Assembly: GCA_003116975.1 (NCBI GenBank)
Contig: BGKB01000121.1
Location: 142,747-206,746, forward strand
DNA length: 64,000 nucleotides
Direction: 5' to 3'
Source of the DNA: Aurantiochytrium sp. KH105
Lineage: Eukaryota; Sar; Bigyra; Thraustochytrida; Thraustochytriidae
A program made the position numbers and the translations under genes. The notes beneath the pieces were generated by a model. The model was not told where the DNA came from and ran no database searches. It worked only from the letters and a program-made list of their open reading frames with translations. Positions 40,266 to 55,493 of this stretch are shown here, one piece after another (positions within the stretch are counted from its first letter, which is position 1; the number at the start of each line of letters is the position of its first letter).

Positions 40266-42461
40266 TTACGCTTTGATGAAGGACTGAACCTTTTCAAAGA
40301 TCTTGACGGAGAGCGGCACAGGCTGGTTGAATACGTCGCCCGTGCGAGCAGTCTCGATGACGGCGGCGAGACGCGTGCCTTGGTCGATTGCGCGTTTGGC
40401 GTCGAGCTCTGAAGCCTCTTGAGAGCCACCAATGAGAAAATACTTTGTATCACCACTGGTCTTGGCTTGAGCCTTGTCCCAAAGCGCACGCTGCGCGACC
40501 TGACCAGCACAAATGACAACATGATCGACGTCGAGGACCTGATCCTTGCCCTTGACCTGGATGTAGAACCCGTCATCGTCGACCTTGACGTACTTGACAT
40601 TGCGGAGCATGTTAACTCCGCGATGGCGGAGCGAGGTGCGGTGAATCCACCCTGTAGTTTTGCCCAAATTGGCGCCTACCTTGTGTTTACCCCGCTGCAA
40701 AAGAAAGATTTCGCGTGGCGAATGTGTCTGGTCGGATTCGGCCTCGTCGGAGGGAGCGAGACCTCCGCGAGTGCTGTTGGAAAGATCGATTTTCCACTCG
40801 TGAGCAAAAGCCTCGAGCGCGGATGGCTTGGCAAGGCCCGGATCGGGGCCCTTCTCCGTGAGACCTTTGCCCTCTGGATCAGAGAGAAATTCGGCAACGT
40901 CAAAGCCGATGCCGCCAGCACCTACAATGGCGACCCGCTTGCCGACCTTGACCTTGCCGCAGAGGACGTCGACATAGCTGACAACCTTGGAGTGGTCGCT
41001 ACCGGGAAAGCTGACCTGGCGAGGCGCGACACCAGTGGCCAAAACGACATGTGTGTAGCCTGCAGCATCGAGATCTTCGATGGATACTGCACGGTTGAGT
41101 TGGAGGTCGACCCCCTTGCGATGGATCTGCGTGGAAAAGTAACGCAGGGTCTCGAAGAACTCTTCTTTGCCAGGGATGCGCTTGGCCATGTTGAATTGAC
41201 CGCCAATGTCAGCATCTTTTTCGAAAAGCGTAGTTTCGAAGCCGCGCTCAGCACAGCTGACCGCGCAAGCAAGGCCAGCAGGGCCCGCGCCAACGACCGC
41301 GACCTTGGAAGACTTGCGCAAGTCGTCCGAGATGGGCGCGAGTTTGAGCTCCGTTTCGTAGCCTGCAAAAGGATTGACCAGACACGAGGCACGCTTGCCC
41401 TGGAAAGCGTGGTCAAGGCAGGCTTGGTTACAGCCAATGCAGGTGTTGATGCCCGCCTCGTCTCCCTGCCTGGCCTTTTCGATGAGATTGGGATCCGCAA
41501 GGAAGGGACGCGCCATGGACACCATGTCCGCATAGCCCTCGCGCAGAATGTCCTCCGCGGTGCTGGGCATGTTGATACGGTTCGTTGTACACACAGGGAT
41601 GTCGACTTTGCCCATGAGGTTCTTGGTGACCCAGGCAAAGCCTCCACGCGGCACTGCAGTGGCAATGGTGGGGATGCGCGCCTGATGCCAGCCAATGCCC
41701 GTGTTGATGATAGAAGCCCCAGCGGCCTCGATTTCGCGCGCCAGGAGCTCAATCTCCTCCCAGGTGGACCCTCCCTGCACGAGATCGAGCATGCTCAGAC
41801 GGTAGATGACGATAAAGTCTGGTCCGAGCGCCTCGCGAATGCGACGTATAATCTCAATGGGAAAACGGATCCGGTTCTCGTAGGCACCGCCCCACTTGTC
41901 GGAGCGCTTGTTGGCCTCGGCGGTGATGAACTGGTTGATGAGGTAACCCTCGGAGCCCATGACCTCGACGCCGTCGTAGCCGGCCTCGCCAGCGAGCTCC
42001 GCAGAGCGAACGAAGTCGTCAATGGTGTCTTCCACGTCGCTCGAGGACAGCGCCTTGGGCGTGACCATGCTGATTGGCGACTTGAGCGGCGACGGTCCAA
42101 CGGCCCAGTGGTGATAGGCGTAGCGACCGGAATGCAGAATTTGCATCGCAATGCGCCCGTCCTCAGCGTGCACAGCCTCGGTCACGGCCTTGTGTTTGTC
42201 GCGGTCGCTGGGCGTGCTCATCTTTGCCGCCATGTAGGTGACGCGGCCGGCGTTGTTGGGACTAATTCCTCCGGTCACGAGCAGCCCGACGCCGCCGCGC
42301 GCGCGCGCTCCGTAAAACTCGGCCATGGCCTCGAGACTACCATTCTTGGTCACCTCTTCGAGGCCCGTGTGCATGCTGCCCATGAGCGCCCTGTTCTTGA
42401 GCACGACGCGGCCCTTGTTGAGCTCGAGCGGCTTGAAGAGGTGCGGAAACTTGGTCGCCAT
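40266..42461 (-). CDS. fadH: NADPH-dependent 2,4-dienoyl-CoA reductase, bacterial FadH type, 731 aa
   Basis: FadH reduces 2,4-dienoyl-CoA during breakdown of unsaturated fatty acids. The protein follows E. coli FadH almost throughout: LKNRALMGSMHTGLEE at the start, an old-yellow-enzyme FMN barrel with GYDGVEVMGSEGYLINQF, INTGIGWHQARIPTIA, and the 4Fe-4S cysteines 341, 344, 348 and 360 (CIGCNQAC..ASC). It continues with a VAVVGAGPAGLACA FAD-binding fold, an NADPH domain (VAIVGAGGIGFDVAEF) and GKTTGWIHRT. All cofactor motifs are intact. It is longer than the 672-residue E. coli enzyme, chiefly through a C-terminal extension. Animals and fungi use an unrelated short-chain dehydrogenase for this step, so a bacterial or endosymbiotic origin is likely. 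The C-terminus (FIKA) is not a PTS1 signal. Confidence 0.95.
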   Translation of the reverse strand: MATKFPHLFKPLELNKGRVVLKNRALMGSMHTGLEEVTKNGSLEAMAEFYGARARGGVGLLVTGGISPNNAGRVTYMAAKMSTPSDRDKHKAVTEAVHAEDGRIAMQILHSGRYAYHHWAVGPSPLKSPISMVTPKALSSSDVEDTIDDFVRSAELAGEAGYDGVEVMGSEGYLINQFITAEANKRSDKWGGAYENRIRFPIEIIRRIREALGPDFIVIYRLSMLDLVQGGSTWEEIELLAREIEAAGASIINTGIGWHQARIPTIATAVPRGGFAWVTKNLMGKVDIPVCTTNRINMPSTAEDILREGYADMVSMARPFLADPNLIEKARQGDEAGINTCIGCNQACLDHAFQGKRASCLVNPFAGYETELKLAPISDDLRKSSKVAVVGAGPAGLACAVSCAERGFETTLFEKDADIGGQFNMAKRIPGKEEFFETLRYFSTQIHRKGVDLQLNRAVSIEDLDAAGYTHVVLATGVAPRQVSFPGSDHSKVVSYVDVLCGKVKVGKRVAIVGAGGIGFDVAEFLSDPEGKGLTEKGPDPGLAKPSALEAFAHEWKIDLSNSTRGGLAPSDEAESDQTHSPREIFLLQRGKHKVGANLGKTTGWIHRTSLRHRGVNMLRNVKYVKVDDDGFYIQVKGKDQVLDVDHVVICAGQVAQRALWDKAQAKTSGDTKYFLIGGSQEASELDAKRAIDQGTRLAAVIETARTGDVFNQPVPLSVKIFEKVQSFIKA

Positions 42462-43142
42462 CGTGGACGCCGTGCAAGGACTCGTTCGCTAGGACCTAGG
42501 TTCCCGCGCGCCTCGCGTGTGCAGCCAGTCTCCTCTGCGCCTCGCCACCCTCGCGCGGGCCTCGCGTTGCCTCGCGCCCAAGGCGGGTCTGCTGCGCCGC
42601 GCGCCTCGCAGCGCGGCCCCTCGGCAAGGTGAAGTGCGAATGCAATGCAATGCAATCGCGCACCCCACACGGTGAAACCCAATGTGCAACATGGACTCTG
42701 GACTTTCTTTCCATCTTCTTCGTTTGCAAGTCCCTTTCCTTTCCATCGTCATTATCTCAGACCCAGCACGCTCGTGACTAGGCTATTAGGCCTAGCTCGA
42801 GCGACAGCACAGAGCCGCGGCGGCAAAGGCTAGAGGAGCTGCCTCAAGCAGCAGCAAGCCTTGCTGCCAGGCCGCGGTGATGTCGAGCATGATGTCTACA
42901 ACCACAAGCTCAGACTAAGTTTGTTGCACGGTTTTATTTACTTCCGCAGCCGGGCCACGCCAGGTTTAACGGAGGTTCGAAGGTTGTAGAACACGTCGAC
43001 ATTACGTTTACAGTCAAAGGTCTGCGCTGACCTGGCTGACTCATTGAAACCTGTCCTCGCTGAGTGACAGTGCGAAGGAGCAAGATGTGAATCTGATTTG
43101 AACAGCAAACAGAATGACGACAGGAGTGTTTTTTTTCTTTTT
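42462..43142. other. Spacer between the dienoyl-CoA reductase and NOX genes
   Basis: 681 bp with the reductase promoter and the NADPH oxidase 3' end. The first 150 bp are GC-rich; the rest is ordinary. No gene or strong repeat is seen. Confidence 0.45.
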
Positions 43143-45704
43143 CTAAAAGTTTTCCTTGTGGAGCTCGAAACGACAGTTGTCCTGGAGCGAAGAGTACTTG
43201 TGACAGAACTGCTTGAGGTCTTTACCGATGATGGGCGTGCCGCAAAAGCAGACGCCGATTCGGTCGACATTCCGTTGACGATTCTGCTTCACGTAAGCAA
43301 AGATCTCGTCCCAGTTGGGACGGCCGTTCCAGATCCAAATATTTTGGTATTGATTCGCAGCAGAAGACGCTTCGTGCGTGGCATTGAGCGGCGGGAGCGC
43401 GGACGGCATTTGTTTAGAGGACACGCTCGGATTAAGGAGCGCAAGCTCGAGGTCTGCGGCAGTGAAACCCAGATCAACATTCATGCCTGCCTGGCGTGTG
43501 GCGAGGCCAGCATTTGCGGTGTCATCCGCAGTCCTCGTTGCGGAACGCGGGGAGGCGCCAGAGAGACGCACGCTCTTTTGACGTTCGACACGCTTGCCAT
43601 CCCTGGGAGCACGCGTAACAAAGAGATGGATTTGGAGTCGATTGTGCGCGCGATCAAGAGCCCCCGCAGCGTAGTCGCTGGCAACATTGCCTTGAAGCTC
43701 ATGGAGAAGAGCAATGAACCATCGAAAGGAAAAGATTTCCGAATGACGGACGACAAAGAAAAAGTGAATTGTGCTTGGATTGAATCCCTTTTTCCACTTG
43801 TGTCGCAAGACGGACTGAATGATGGCCGAAGAAGGAGTGAGCCCGATGCCAGCGCCGACGAGCATGACCTCATCGTACTCAAAGTAATGCTGGGCCGGTG
43901 CGGCATGTGGGCCATCGACCTGGATGAGCGGTAGACCATCGGGCCCAAGATGCTTGCCGCGTTGCTGCACGCCCTGGCTGTCGAGATGCGAGAGATACAG
44001 GGAAAAATCTTTGCCATTGCTTGCATTGGGAGACCCGGCCATGCTTCGAAAGCGCTGGCAGAGCTGATGGGTCCAACTTCCTTCTGCCTGGACGCGAATG
44101 TGCAAGGTGACCTCGCCATTCTTCTTTTCGAGGTCTTCGTAGGCAGAGGAAATTGTGAAAGGGTGCCACGCAAAGGTGGAAATGGAAGGCGCGAGGAGAT
44201 GCAGATATTGGCCCTCCTTGAAGACAAAGTCGCCAGGGCGGCCCGGAAAGAAGCTGATGCACATGACGGGGTCCTTGAAGATGACCGAAGAAACGTAAAA
44301 CGCCTTGCGGCCTTTGCGCTCGCGATAAAATCGCTCTGCCGTGTACGCAAGAAGAGGAATGCAACCCCAGAGCCAGAACTTGGGCGCGTGGGCGAGTAGA
44401 CAGGCGAAAAAGAGCAAAAAAGCATGATGCGTGTTCCAAAAGGTCTCGTACTGAGCGCGCTTGACGCGGTTCTGGGCGCCAGCAAAGATGACATACATTG
44501 CAAAGGTGATGAGAAAACCGGTGATAAAGGCGCCCGGCTGGAAAATGTTAGTCGTGGCCTCGGGGGCCTTCCAGAGGTTGAGCATGTGAAAGACGATGTG
44601 GCCAATCGACCCGGCGAGGACAAAGATGGCGATGAACTTGTGGAGAACAATATTCTTGCGGAGCGGGGGCATGTACTTTGCTACAGTGGAGGACCCATTG
44701 ACGGAGAAATTGTTGAGTCTCCGCACAAGCGTGCGCAGCACAGGGAGCAGGATGACACTGCAGTTGAAATTAAGCGTCTGCCCAAAGGCTTTGGCAAAGG
44801 GTGCATAGTCGGAGAGACAGAGGAAGGGCGATGCTGTCGAGCACGCCTTTTGCGCCTCGTCGACAAGATCGACCCACTCGGCAAGACGTTGCACCCAGAG
44901 GACAACATTGATGAGAACGTAGATGGTGACAAAGACGACCTGGCCTGCAGCACCAATCTCGATAAGGCGACTCCAGACAGTGCTAATTCGTTCGCCAATG
45001 GACTTGGACCGCGCGCGCCCTTCCTCGTCATCTTGGTGCACGGCAGCCTTGTTTTCGCACTTGCATAGGAGGAAGGATTCATGAACAACGTTTTGCGGCG
45101 TGAGCGTTTCGTTACGATGCGTAGCGGCAAAGTTGGCGGCGGCGCAAATGATCATGACGCCACCTGCCAGCATTGTTGGATAGGAAAACATTGTCCCGAC
45201 CGCAAGGACGATGTATGCTGCGCCCCGAAGCCAGGACCTGCCTGCATTTACTTGTTCGCCCGGAAGCCAAGAGCATTGCCGAAGCCCATTCACTTTTTCC
45301 CAGGCGAGAAGAAGGATGCCGATGGCCACGCAGTAGGGACCGCAAAAGTTGGCGGCAAAGAGGACGTCTCCTGCGGCTGGACGGTCAATGATCTCCTGCG
45401 ACCAGGTCACGGCAACGAAGCCAAAGGCAATATTGGACAAGCCGGCCGCATAGCCAAGATTGTGCGCCCAGAGCGTGAATGTGAGGACATCGGCGCCAGG
45501 CGGAGGAGCTGGCGGAGTTTGTTTGGCTGTGTTGACTTGCAGCGGGGTGATGACGGGGCTTTGGCATGGTGACTGTACCTGCTGTTGTTGATGCAGGTTC
45601 TGTACAGGAGCTCGAGGAGGTTCACTTTCAGCAAGCTGGGTTTGGCGGTGCGTGAGGTGCGCTGGTTTGATGGGTTTGGGCGGTGGGCTCGAGGTCGGGA
45701 TCAT
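43143..45704 (-). CDS. NADPH oxidase with N-terminal p22phox-like domain, 853 aa
   Basis: NADPH oxidases pass electrons from NADPH through FAD and two hemes to oxygen, making superoxide outside the membrane. Residues about 240-853 are NOX2-like: LNFNCSVILLPVLRTL, heme ligands His355/His369 and His426/His439 with NOX2 spacing (14 and 13), WHPFTISSA for FAD, LVGAGIGLTP and GRPNWDEIF for NADPH, and the terminal HKENF. There are no EF-hands, so it is not of NOX5/DUOX type. Residues about 72-205 resemble p22phox (CYBA), the separate partner of NOX1-4: TLWAHNLGYAAGL, GPYCVAIGILLLAWE, a YIVLAVGTMFSYPTMLAGG helix pair, and a RNETLTP close matching RGEQWTP. Both hydrophobic blocks and their order agree. 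The first 70 residues are Pro/Gln-rich. The NOX assignment is secure; the p22phox part is a motif-level judgement. Confidence 0.9.
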   Translation of the reverse strand: MIPTSSPPPKPIKPAHLTHRQTQLAESEPPRAPVQNLHQQQQVQSPCQSPVITPLQVNTAKQTPPAPPPGADVLTFTLWAHNLGYAAGLSNIAFGFVAVTWSQEIIDRPAAGDVLFAANFCGPYCVAIGILLLAWEKVNGLRQCSWLPGEQVNAGRSWLRGAAYIVLAVGTMFSYPTMLAGGVMIICAAANFAATHRNETLTPQNVVHESFLLCKCENKAAVHQDDEEGRARSKSIGERISTVWSRLIEIGAAGQVVFVTIYVLINVVLWVQRLAEWVDLVDEAQKACSTASPFLCLSDYAPFAKAFGQTLNFNCSVILLPVLRTLVRRLNNFSVNGSSTVAKYMPPLRKNIVLHKFIAIFVLAGSIGHIVFHMLNLWKAPEATTNIFQPGAFITGFLITFAMYVIFAGAQNRVKRAQYETFWNTHHAFLLFFACLLAHAPKFWLWGCIPLLAYTAERFYRERKGRKAFYVSSVIFKDPVMCISFFPGRPGDFVFKEGQYLHLLAPSISTFAWHPFTISSAYEDLEKKNGEVTLHIRVQAEGSWTHQLCQRFRSMAGSPNASNGKDFSLYLSHLDSQGVQQRGKHLGPDGLPLIQVDGPHAAPAQHYFEYDEVMLVGAGIGLTPSSAIIQSVLRHKWKKGFNPSTIHFFFVVRHSEIFSFRWFIALLHELQGNVASDYAAGALDRAHNRLQIHLFVTRAPRDGKRVERQKSVRLSGASPRSATRTADDTANAGLATRQAGMNVDLGFTAADLELALLNPSVSSKQMPSALPPLNATHEASSAANQYQNIWIWNGRPNWDEIFAYVKQNRQRNVDRIGVCFCGTPIIGKDLKQFCHKYSSLQDNCRFELHKENF

Positions 45705-46799: not shown

Positions 46800-48011
46800 A
46801 TGGACGGAAGCTGGGAGGTCTTTGAGACCCCGGACGTTGAAGATGCGTACGACGAGGACGTGCGCCGAAGCGAGCCAACAGCGACGACAAGCGGAGGCGA
46901 GGACGGTGCTCGGGTAGACGCTGCGCCTGCGCCAGAGCCGGAGCGCGTGTTTGAGGTATTTGCTGGCAAACGCTTTGTGGTTGACCGGCGCAAGGCGCAG
47001 GAAAATGAGGACCAACAGGTCCCACGAAGGCGACTTGCGCCCGAGGAAGTCGGCAGTCTCTTGGAGTCACCATTTGAGCGGTTTAACAGGCTCAAGGCGG
47101 AAGTTGCAGAGCTCATGAACGACCTCGAAATTGATGAAGATGATGAGCTCGGGAGTGAAGGTGGTGCGCACAGCGACGCGTATGAGCAGCTTGCAAACGG
47201 CGTCAAGACGCTAAAACAGTCGCTCATGACCCTCAAGGGCCAGCAGGGCCTCGCCACGCTCTTGAGTAATCAAGAGAGTAGCACGGAGGATCGTGCGGCG
47301 GCGCAGGCCCTCAACAAGGCCCGCGCCGACGCCTTGCGGCAACGTTTGGATCGAGGCCAAAAGGAGTTAGGCAACGGCGACGAGACGTCAACGACCGTGA
47401 GTTTCGATTTATTGTACGCGGGCGATAGCGCAGCGACATCGGTCGACACGGAGCAGCCGAGTGCCCTGGAGGCTCGCGTGCGTGCTCTGGAGGCCTTGCT
47501 TGGCGACGCTTCCTCATCGTCTTCGGGATCGCAGCCGCAACATCAGCAACAGCACCATCCAAGACCTCTTCTGCAAACGGTGGATTATCTGGAAAAGCAG
47601 GTGCAGCTGCTGGATGAGGCCAAGTTGAGTCATCTCACTCAAAAAGCAAAGGCCTTGAACTCTGAACTGGAAGAGTCTGCGCGCTTGCGGCAACGGCGAC
47701 GAGCTGCTGGCGGAGAGGGCGAGCCCTCGGGTTCTCTGGCAACAAGCGAAGTGTCGGACGTTTTGCGCAAGCTTGACAACGTTGATGCTGTCGCTGGAAG
47801 TCTGCCAGGCATCGTTGACCGCCTACGTACAGCACAAGAGATTCATCAGCATAATGCTAATCTTCACACGCGCCTCGATGAGCTCGATCGTGTCCATGCT
47901 GAGCTCGATGAGGCGGCCTCGTTGGATCGCGAACTGCTCGAGACGCTCCAAAAGAGTCTTGCAGAGAATGTAGAGCGCATGCAAGCGCACATCGACGCTT
48001 TGCAGCAGTGA
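46800..48011 (+). CDS. DCTN2: Dynactin subunit 2 (p50 dynamitin), 403 aa
   Basis: p50 dynamitin holds the dynactin shoulder together and links the dynein adaptor to its cargo arm. The protein opens with a conserved acidic N-terminus (FETPDVEDAYDED). A coiled coil follows (SPFERFNRLKAEVAELMNDLE), then a second helical region LLQTVDYLEKQVQLLDEAKLS. The C-terminal helices run through LRKLDNVDAVAGSLPGIVDRL and LHTRLDELDRVHAELDEA to ENVERMQAHIDAL. The 403-residue length matches human DCTN2 (about 400). Two Ser/Gln/His-rich linkers lie between coils. The stop at 48009-48011 sits in a 12-bp repeat that continues 3'. Dynactin presence implies cytoplasmic dynein transport. Confidence 0.9.
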   Translation: MDGSWEVFETPDVEDAYDEDVRRSEPTATTSGGEDGARVDAAPAPEPERVFEVFAGKRFVVDRRKAQENEDQQVPRRRLAPEEVGSLLESPFERFNRLKAEVAELMNDLEIDEDDELGSEGGAHSDAYEQLANGVKTLKQSLMTLKGQQGLATLLSNQESSTEDRAAAQALNKARADALRQRLDRGQKELGNGDETSTTVSFDLLYAGDSAATSVDTEQPSALEARVRALEALLGDASSSSSGSQPQHQQQHHPRPLLQTVDYLEKQVQLLDEAKLSHLTQKAKALNSELEESARLRQRRRAAGGEGEPSGSLATSEVSDVLRKLDNVDAVAGSLPGIVDRLRTAQEIHQHNANLHTRLDELDRVHAELDEAASLDRELLETLQKSLAENVERMQAHIDALQQ

Positions 48012-52484: not shown

Positions 52485-54503
52485 TCAATAGCCGGCCTCG
52501 TAGGACCCCCAAAAGTCGTCGGACTCGGCGTCCTCGTGCTCGATGACAATTTCGACAGTGGAGGCATGAGAGGCGGTCTTGCGAGATTGAACAAAGGCTC
52601 TGGCTTTGGCCACGGATGCATCCTCATTGATGCGGTCCTCGAGCCGTGAACCGAGCCAAATGTAGGCACGCTCGAAAACGAGCGGCGCGTTTGCCGAAGG
52701 CGGCGGGGCATCATCACGGTCCTTGACGAGCAAAACAAACATGGCCTCACTGGCGAGATCGTCCGAGTCGTAATTTTCGAGCCTCGCCCAGTGATCCTCG
52801 TGATGCTCGTTCTCGTACCAGCCATAGAGCTCGACTACGTAACGCTCGGCGGCTCGACGAATCTTGTCGGCGGACGACACAATGCTGCGGTGGGAAATCT
52901 TGGAAACATGCTTGGGAGAGCTTGTGCGACCACCATACTCCTCGTCATACTTGCCAAGGTCCTGGTCAACGTCTGTGTCGTCCATTTCCTCTGCGTCTGC
53001 AGCATCGACGCCCAGAGCAACCCAGAAATTTTTGTGGATCTCCGGATCTTGGTCCTGGCAATAGGCGATGTGGTGATTCTTGAAAAAGGGCAAGAGGTCG
53101 ACGGACCATCCGATCCACTTTTCTGCGGCTGAGACAAAGTCGGCCTCGTGCTCGCAGCGCGGACCCGACCAGATGAAGCAGGTTGAGGTGCGATATTCGT
53201 GGAGCACAAAGACACCCCTTGCATCAAGTTCGGTGGGACGCGCCGTGACGGGACGAGTTGTCTCGCGCGTGTCATAGCACAGCTTGAGAACGAGCGAAGG
53301 GTCCTTGTTGGAGTGAGGCGCGATGCGGTACAGCTCAGGTTTGCGCGGCTCCTGGCGCAAGTACCGCTGGAACTCCATGAGCTGAGCCACAAAGCCGGCG
53401 TTGGGGTTACAGACGGGGCGTTTGGCCTTGACCACGTCAAAGGCTTCTTCAAAGGTGGCCCCATCCTTCCACATCATGTAGGCGATGACAACGGTACATG
53501 ACCGGCTGACGCCCATATGGCAATGAACAAAGCAGGATCCACTCGAGGTGCGCGCCTTTTCAATGTACATGATTGCCTCGAGAAGAAAGGGTAGAATGCT
53601 CTCGTTGGCACTATCAATGACTTCGAGGGCGAGATAGTCGAACTCGCCCGTGTCTTGGTGGTAGTTTTTACAGACGGTGTGGGCCATGTTGAGAATGTGG
53701 GTGACGCCGGCTTCGTGGAGCACCTCTTTGTTGCGAGCGACCCAGTCTCCGCTGACGGAGAGCCAGGGATAGATGACTGAGGCTTCCTTGCTGCACTTGC
53801 GTGCGTCCTCGATGGCCTTTTGCCGTACGGTATCCATGCCGGTCTCTTGGGGCGCCGATGCGGCGATGACGGTCGTCGAAGTCGTTGGGCCCGAAGATTT
53901 CTTAAGCGTCGCTTTAGCAAAGTCCCCGGGGTTGAAGACGGGGCGGAGCGGCATGCCGCCGCCGCCGCCGCCGCCGCCGCCAGCAGCACCTGCGAGGGCC
54001 GCGGCAAGGGGGTGCGGAGGTCTACCGGAGCCGGCCCCTGGCGCGCCCGACGTGGGGCCCGAACCAGACGAAGCCGCGTTCTTTTTCAGGGCGGCCTGCA
54101 TCGCGAGGGCGCCGGGACTAATCATGGGGGGTGGCCTGCGCACGCCATCATCGCTGTCATCGTGTTCGACATCTTCCTGGGCCTTTCGCCTCGAATTCTT
54201 TTGCTTTTGCTTTTGCGCAAGGGCATCGGCATGCTGCGCGGCCTTGGCCGCCCTCGAGCGTTTGGCGTCCTCGCTGTGGCGGCTGGACTTGGTCTTTGAG
54301 GCCCGCGCGGGCAAGGCCGGTCCCCTGAGCGCGTTGGACTTTCGGTCCGAGGACCGGGCGCCGCCGGTCTTGCTGCTGCTGCTGCCGAAGCCCATCTTGT
54401 ACTGGCTCGTGCGTCTCGGCGTGCTGGGCACGGCGCCCACGCACACCTCTTCGCGGTCGCTCTTGCGCACGACGCTGCCCTTCTGGCTGGACTTGTTGCC
54501 CAT
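52485..54503 (-). CDS. Dual-specificity phosphatase with gelsolin-like repeats (MKP1-like), 672 aa
   Basis: A dual-specificity phosphatase domain spans about residues 225-365. The catalytic loop is [10 protein letters not shown] with Cys328 and Arg334, and the likely general acid is Asp297. All catalytic residues are intact. Downstream, about 385-500 ([18 protein letters not shown]) and 560-670 ([16 protein letters not shown], ending near DDFW) resemble two gelsolin-type repeats. A phosphatase plus gelsolin-like module is the layout of plant MAP-kinase phosphatase MKP1. The N-terminus MGNKSSQK fits the N-myristoylation consensus (Gly2, Ser6), suggesting membrane attachment. Between lies a basic, disordered region with Gly/Pro runs (GGGGGGGG). 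The start is the ATG at 54503; the frame upstream is open to a GTG but is only GC-rich noise. Confidence 0.87.
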
Positions 54504-55493
54504 GGACCGCCGCCGCGCGGCGGCCTCGCAGGCGCGGCGCGGGCGGAGCGGGCGCGGGCGCGGGCGCGGCGGGCTGGCGGGCGGGTCTCGGGCCTGGCGC
54601 GACTGCCGCGCGGGGCCTGGGCGCGCGAGCGAGCGAGCGAGCGAGCTCGGGCGCGAGGAGAGCGCGCGCGGTGAAAGCGCCCCTCGCGGCTTTCCGCCTC
54701 TCCCTTCGCCGCTCGCGCCGCGCGCCAAGGCGGACGCGCGGGGGCGGGGGGGGGGCGGCGGGCGGGAGGGTCGCCGGCGGGGCGCGCGGGGGAAGGCAGC
54801 GAGCGAGGGCCGCGGGGGCGTCGACGCCGGCCGGCGGCGCGCGAGAGGTCGCGCTCGCTCGCTGGCGAGGCTCGATCGCAGTCTGCGCTGCACGCGGGAG
54901 AGAGCGGGCGCGTAGGAGGGGCCTAGGAGGGCGTACCGCGTTCTCTTGCGTTCTCGCGCGGGTGCGCACCCGGTGGCGGGGCGCTAGGAAGGCCTACGCG
55001 CGCGCGTTCTCTTCGCGGGAGAGCGAAACGCATGCATGCCGTCTGTCTGTCCGAGTCCTTGTCACGTTCTTCTTTTTAGAGTATACAACAACGCTAACTC
55101 GACGAGGTGGCGCTGGCGCTGGCGCTGGCGCTGGAGCTGGAGCTGGAGCTGGGGTTGGAGAGGCGAGGCAGGTGCAGCTTGGCTGGCGGTCGTTCATCGT
55201 CCGCTCTGCGCGGCAGGATGGTCGCGAGTGGAACTGCAGCAAGCCTTGGCGACCTCACCTCCTCGTGAACTTGAAGAACTCGAAGCTCGGCACGATACAA
55301 TCTGTATACCAAGCCATCGCGTCAGGTCGTGCTCTGCTCTGCCCTGCCGTGCCAAGCCATGGCTGGCCGTGCCGTGCCGTGCCCTGCGATGCCACGCCAC
55401 GCCATCCTATGCCGTGCCTCGGACGAAGCGCCGTCCGCTCGCTTCTCACCTCCGGCGGCCACGCCAGCGGCGCGAGCCCTCCTGGATGGAGGA

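Follow-up and report, generated by a model that had tools for sequence, protein, structure and literature searches.

Among the closest described systems is the human NOX2–p22phox complex, in which p22phox is a separate chain having four helices and a free cytosolic tail that docks p47phox, and in which NOX2 ends in a cytosolic dehydrogenase (DH) domain, according to PMC9711523. A 2022 survey describes p22phox, p47phox and p67phox as restricted to opisthokonts (PMC9421330), to which CybA of Dictyostelium is an existing exception (PMC5758549), and in PMC3591440 the origin of p22phox is referred to as still unknown. Here, the subject is a gene of the thraustochytrid Aurantiochytrium sp. KH105, located in a 64,000-nucleotide stretch of contig BGKB01000121.1 (positions 142,747 to 206,746), referred to as the window. 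The minus-strand open reading frame (ORF) at window positions 43143 to 45704 codes for 853 residues in an uninterrupted frame, in which a p22phox domain precedes a NADPH oxidase (NOX) core; this one intact ORF thus joins homologues of both human subunits. The encoded protein is very probably a single-chain counterpart of flavocytochrome b558, consisting of the four-helix p22phox domain, a linker of about 46 residues and a NOX without EF-hands. The name p22phox domain, rather than p22phox subunit, is used because the C-terminus of this part continues into the NOX part and does not form a free tail; the proline motifs are upstream of it.

An earlier note on this DNA had proposed that a hydrophobic block of about 130 residues, with p22phox-like motifs, precedes a complete NOX2-type core. 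This arrangement is indeed present, on the minus strand, which was absent from that note, and the block corresponds to the 133 residues 72 to 204 (window 45093 to 45491). The motifs that were quoted are all found, being TLWAHN (from residue 77), GPYCVAIG (residue 122) and RNETLTP (residue 197), and the protein ends in HKENF, which includes the proposed C-terminal KENF. The features of the ORF, in window positions, are as follows.

43143 to 45704, minus strand: the whole ORF, a p22phox–NOX fusion of 853 residues, identified as an ORF and by its near-identity to the database protein P0001; second copy at G000:C20.
45492 to 45704, minus strand: residues 1 to 71, disordered proline-rich N-terminus without SH3 (predicted local distance difference test score, pLDDT, below 50 for residues 1 to 65; PxxP at residues 8 and 61; no Pfam SH3).
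45666 to 45683, minus strand: residues 8 to 13, PPKPIK, SH3-ligand-like proline motif (motif scan).
45093 to 45491, minus strand: residues 72 to 204, p22phox domain, 133 residues, four helices (profiles, predicted fold).
45420 to 45422, minus strand: Gly95, corresponding to Gly25 of human p22phox (38/38 fused domains).
45297 to 45299, minus strand: Glu136, corresponding to Glu53 of human p22phox, a site of chronic granulomatous disease (CGD) mutation according to PMC9711523 (Glu in 37/38, Asp in 1).
45225 to 45227, minus strand: Arg160, corresponding to Arg90 of human p22phox, also a CGD site according to PMC9711523 (27/38).
45108 to 45110, minus strand: Glu199, corresponding to Glu129 of human p22phox, within the closing RNETLTP (RGEQWTP in the human protein) (38/38).
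44955 to 45092, minus strand: residues 205 to 250, linker from the p22phox C-terminus to the NOX N-terminus (pLDDT below 50 at residues 210 to 223; no nonsynonymous change between the two copies).
44310 to 44954, minus strand: residues 251 to 465, NOX transmembrane domain (PF01794).
43146 to 44309, minus strand: residues 466 to 853, FAD- and NADPH-binding dehydrogenase domain, ending in HKENF.

Residues 72 to 204 are a genuine p22phox homologue, as was claimed in the earlier note and as is found by profile search, profile–profile comparison, predicted fold and conserved residues. A profile of relatives is needed for this identification, because the single sequence matches neither the Pfam p22phox family PF05038 nor p22phox in the Protein Data Bank (PDB), where the domain by itself matches only a lipoprotein, at E 1.3; in a single-query protein search with residues 66 to 225, the Hondaea protein is the only one recovered from 1436 candidates. 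The profile (A2) built from 19 fused p22phox domains, having 129 positions, was searched against all PDB sequences. Its significant matches are p22phox chains only (E 1.8e-13 to 6.4e-13, the next match being at 0.08), and the matches to three p22phox sequences span nearly all of the 129 positions. Comparison of the fused domains with p22phox, profile against profile (hhalign), gives a probability of 98.0 (E 1.5e-13, 114 columns). The hidden Markov model (HMM) of the fused domains matches 120 of 120 p22phox proteins, the named ones being from vertebrates, at E 1.9e-16 to 1.8e-6; among 240 decoys, reversed or shuffled, the best reaches E 0.26. The fold predicted for the domain when modelled alone ranks the same three p22phox chains first, in support of what had been proposed for the N-terminal block. 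The predicted structure has the four-helix fold of p22phox, with helices at residues 76 to 107, 121 to 139, 158 to 173 and 175 to 196 in the full-chain model; in the fold searches with this full-chain model the p22phox domain is not among the matches listed, which are filled by the NOX part. The chains of human NOX2–p22phox (PDB entries 8gz3, 7u8g, 8kei and 8wej) are the best structural matches to both parts of the fusion chain.

The polar network of human p22phox is formed by Asn11, Glu53, Arg90, His94 and Tyr121, and CGD mutations are known at Arg90, Glu53 and His94 (PMC9711523). In the 38 full-length fused domains, the positions of Gly25, Glu129 and Glu53 are the best preserved, as listed above for the window protein. 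Three network positions are more variable: Asn11 is kept in 1 of 38 domains, His being the commonest residue (22), His94 is kept in 5 of 38 (most often Tyr, 26) and Tyr121 in 7 of 38 (most often Asn, 19). The window protein keeps two of the five network residues, and the other three are replaced by other polar residues.

Several observations weigh against the p22phox identification. PF05038 gives no match in the window protein, an outcome that, taken literally, refutes the proposal of the earlier note and that is overturned by the profiles built from relatives. The vertebrate p22phox HMM reaches only E 0.93 with the window domain, the best Foldseek match of the domain model to p22phox is at E 1.6e-3 with none at or below 0.001, and the window protein differs from the human one at three of the five network positions (Asn11 to His81, His94 to Tyr164, Tyr121 to Asn191). 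The weakness of the curated models extends to the relatives: PF05038 matches 1 of 10 of these (E 0.0044, 17.1 bits, the cut-off being 25), and the vertebrate HMM finds the paralogue described below at E 0.091 and scores 9 of the 38 fused domains above the best decoy. The curated PF05038 model does not reach this branch.

The NOX core is complete. The three Pfam families Ferric_reduct (PF01794), FAD_binding_8 and NAD_binding_6 are all above the cut-off, and no EF-hand family is matched in the Pfam scan of the window protein. The heme ligands are His355 and His369, and His426 and His439, with spacings of 14 and 13, as for 101/115 and 209/222 of NOX2, in agreement with the NOX2-type histidines that had been proposed. 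Further, His373 corresponds to His119 of NOX2 and Thr395-Gly396 to Thr178-Gly179; in A3, the columns that hold the five histidines and Gly396 do not vary. The family profile scores NOX2 at 319 bits, NOX5 at 299 bits and DUOX1 at 205 bits, and in the fold comparison the NOX part of the full-chain model is matched best by NOX2 chains. The description of the core as NOX2-like is correct with respect to the profile score and the missing EF-hands; a closer kinship to NOX2 than to other NOX proteins is not settled by the trees.

As in human NOX2–p22phox, the heme spacing, the KENF end and the counterparts of Gly25, Glu53, Arg90 and Glu129 of p22phox are present, whereas the human complex has two polypeptides and the fusion is one chain, with His, Tyr and Asn at the positions of Asn11, His94 and Tyr121. 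The human p22phox tail is free, whereas here its place is taken by the linker to NOX. NOX5 and NOX-EF are also single-chain enzymes, and NADPH oxidase 5 is the NCBI name of the fusion protein, but these have EF-hands, where the fusion has a p22phox domain. DUOX1 (with DUOXA1) resembles the fusion in having a regulatory module N-terminal to the NOX part, and the position of p22phox is similar to that of the M0 helix of DUOX1 according to PMC9711523, but M0 is one helix, joined to the regulatory PHLD and EF domains, and not a four-helix domain of the p22phox type.

A protein database search finds that the window protein is identical in 852 of 853 residues to a Hondaea fermentalgiana protein (P0001), whose database name, "NADPH oxidase 5", does not mention p22phox. 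A second, intact copy of the ORF, in which 15 of 853 residues are different, lies at G000:C20 of the genome that holds the window (76 Mb, 367 contigs). These two copies look like a haplotype-like pair because their DNA, together with the flanks, has 95% identity in a main block of 4.6 kb and 89% in another 0.9 kb. The ratio of nonsynonymous to synonymous changes (dN/dS) between them is 0.083 overall, with zero nonsynonymous changes in the 46-residue linker, and, as judged from the sequences, the second copy is under purifying selection.

There is also a paralogue (Hondaea; L003:430-3327 and L004:433-3330, both on the plus strand), of 965 residues and in two haplotype-like copies, which has the same p22phox–NOX order and 41% identity to the window protein over residues 227 to 853. 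In front of its p22phox domain, this paralogue has SH3 (PF14604, E 1.5e-8) and, below the cut-off, a weak match to WW (E 0.028). A profile search for relatives gave 60 proteins at E <=1e-10 among 7996 candidates scored, and 45 of these (P0122-P0166) are treated as the family; together with the two Hondaea paralogues they make up 47 rows. The p22phox domain is full (at least 110 residues) in 38 rows and cut short in 6, P0162 and P0165 start after the domain, and P0158 is doubtful. Named bearers of the fusion are Mucochytrium quahogii (a thraustochytrid), Triparma verrucosa (Bolidophyceae) and Cercozoa sp. M6MM (Rhizaria); P0132, P0139 and P0160 are fusion relatives from EukProt, and P0124 is from the source mmetsp. 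The names of P0139 and P0160 look like ORF calls on assembled transcripts. The fusion, for which the earlier note had proposed a search in related genomes, is also present in further stramenopiles and in members of the Rhizaria, and the idea that this protist makes the pair as one chain holds in that one frame includes the NOX core, but it is not peculiar to this protist.

Within the genome, no free-standing p22phox is recognised by a six-frame, exon-wise search, from which an intron-split gene could escape; one weak extra place is found, at C25 (E 0.35), with one internal stop. Two other searches are uninformative: a vertebrate p22phox query gives five weak places (E 0.046 to 8.5) and misses the fused genes, and PF05038 gives 0 matches over the genome, its control also being silent in 14 of 14 genomes. 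The genome also has more distant NOX/ferric reductase relatives, at G000:C111:117478-118431, G000:C126:112178-113074, L005 and L006, apparently in paired copies and seen as core regions only.

In the trees of the NOX core the fused proteins form one group, with a support of 100/100 in both trees. The first tree has 59 rows, including 11 of the 14 other profile matches and 44 of the 47 rows (37 with a full domain, 4 with a domain that is cut short, 2 without it, and P0158), three being dropped for short cores. In the second tree, 7 further rows were left out and 38 of the set were kept (37 with a full domain). NOX2 is represented in the trees by one row only. The deepest split of the fused group is between a cercozoan branch and a branch of thraustochytrids and Triparma, and SH3 bearers are found on both sides of this split. 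On the simplest reading of these sequences, there was one SH3–p22phox–NOX ancestor, and SH3 was lost on the line that leads to the window gene. The fused group, NOX2 and P0167 share a fork supported at 82/82 in the first tree, which is without resolution in the second, the sampling being thin. No p22phox domain is recognised in the NOX relative P0167 (988 residues), whose long N-terminal region is of no recognised kind; in one of the trees this protein is placed, with weak support, beside the fused group and NOX2.

SH3 is listed in the precomputed Pfam column for 21 of the 45 collected relatives, and in the proteins for which its position was calculated, namely the paralogue and 5 relatives above the cut-off, it is in front of the p22phox domain; the SH3 match of the cercozoan fusion is below the threshold. 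An SH3 domain within the NOX polypeptide is also described for Naegleria gruberi (PMC3591440), but there it is inside the NADPH-binding domain, and the parts of PMC3591440 that deal with this protein do not mention a p22phox domain. The SH3 part of the family profile matches SH3 chains of p47phox (1uec, 1.4e-16); no specific kinship to p47phox is claimed, because Grb2 scores higher with the same part. Like the tandem SH3 domains of p47phox (NCF1), the family SH3 would act on the cytosolic face, but p47phox is a separate soluble organiser. Proline motifs were counted in the 36 proteins having at least 59 residues before the p22phox domain and compared with shuffled sequences. In the SH3-less members, 11 of 14 have such motifs (33 motifs against 6.8 expected, with 0 of 1000 shuffles as high), and in the SH3-bearing members 10 of 22 (21 against 12.1 expected, p 0.011); among the 14 SH3-less rows are P0156, whose SH3 match is sub-threshold, and P0138, which has an SH3-like pattern. 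This distribution suggests a division of SH3 and ligand between the paralogues. Counting against this part of the interpretation, control by SH3 and proline motifs is a motif argument only, and it is put forward with less confidence. Weak matches to the SH3 end of the cercozoan protein are also found at G000:C184:97783-98073 and G000:C85:437850-438101 (E 0.025 and 0.046), in frames of 873 residues that are possible SH3 adaptors.

It could be considered that the N-terminal helices belong to a four-helix membrane domain of another family (tetraspan or MARVEL-like, Cg6151-P, COPI_assoc, CD20), unrelated to p22phox and resembling it by chance. Sub-threshold Pfam matches to such families do occur, to Cg6151-P in the window protein (0.48), to CD20 in the paralogue (0.021) and to COPI_assoc in P0133 (0.0052) and P0148 (0.23), and these are about as strong as the sole p22phox match among the relatives (0.0044), there being none to p22phox for the window protein. 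Nevertheless, a chance likeness is rejected on the basis of the decoys and the PDB-wide profile search, and this explanation is extremely improbable. Similarly, there is very little to commend a joining of two neighbouring genes by an error of the gene model or the assembly: the prediction of the fusion is a bare ORF, but the frame runs without interruption through both copies in the genome, the linker is constrained, and the same order is found in the paralogue and in independent datasets, some apparently transcript-derived, on the basis of which an artefact is rejected. It is somewhat less improbable, though still unlikely, that the core is a ferric or metal reductase and not a superoxide-making NOX. 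The Pfam names of that kind cover the whole superfamily; counterparts of His101, His119, Thr178 and Gly179, which PMC3591440 gives as indicators of members that generate reactive oxygen species, are present, the profile scores favour NOX proteins, and the distant reductase-like Hondaea protein L005 stands apart in the tree, at the end of a very long branch. A metalloreductase is rejected on the basis of the His119/Thr178/Gly179 signature and the heme histidines.

A more serious alternative, possible although not the favoured one, is that the fused p22phox domain is a folding tether only and that the enzyme is constitutively active, without SH3-based control. NOX4–p22phox is constitutively active (PMC9421330), and the window protein has neither SH3 nor EF-hands. 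This is weighed against the occurrence of SH3 in the paralogue and nearly half of the relatives, before the p22phox domain where positions were computed, and against the enrichment of proline motifs in the SH3-less members. The balance is slightly in favour of the SH3–p22phox–NOX chain being an ancient, self-contained oxidase of the phagocyte type in Stramenopiles and Rhizaria. Either the p22phox–NOX partnership would predate the opisthokonts, or the pair would have been fused once near the base of the stramenopiles, alveolates and Rhizaria (SAR), with the SH3 organiser built in; the window protein would then be a descendant that has lost SH3 and kept the proline motif as the ligand side of a switch.

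In the single-chain enzyme, the p22phox helices would pack on NOX helices 3 to 5 as in human NOX2–p22phox, such that each NOX would have its stabilising partner at 1:1 at all times and assembly would be guaranteed. From the cytosolic location of the human p22phox tail, and from the four helices, which place both ends on one side, we infer that the linker is cytosolic, as is the segment with SH3 or proline motifs at the N-terminus; with NOX2 also ending in the cytosol, the topology is compatible with one chain. Electrons would pass from NADPH via FAD and the two hemes to O2, generating superoxide on the far side of the membrane. With less confidence, the cytosolic N-terminus may be the control site, through SH3 in roughly half of the relatives that were collected and through the proline motif in the SH3-less window paralogue. 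Such control would have the role that in animals belongs to the p22phox proline-rich region and the p47phox SH3 domains, and it could proceed by recruitment of an adaptor or by SH3–proline contacts within or between the two paralogues.

No paper on a p22phox–NOX fusion was found among those listed in a literature search by title and start of abstract, with most subscription journals and preprints outside its reach. Both components are known; the single chain, the SH3 form and the taxonomic spread appear to be new. The occurrence of this chain across Stramenopiles and Rhizaria puts the partnership in a wider setting, which may be much older, and opens its history to tests. For structural work, the chain provides a natural single-chain oxidase of fixed stoichiometry, with natural variants that have or do not have a tethered SH3.

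In the surroundings of the fusion gene, the next gene on the same strand (window 40266 to 42461, minus strand, 731 residues) has NADH:flavin oxidoreductase and pyridine-nucleotide oxidoreductase domains (PF00724 and PF07992). Divergent and upstream of the fusion gene there is a gene for Dynamitin, a dynactin subunit (PF04912, E 4e-43; window 46800 to 48011, plus strand), and further on an ORF of 802 residues has a dual-specificity phosphatase domain (PF00782, E 1.4e-30; window 52485 to 54893, minus strand). Long antisense ORFs overlap the coding ORFs, such as the one at 40419 to 42632 on the plus strand opposite 40266 to 42461 on the minus strand; these are probably a by-product of composition and not genes.
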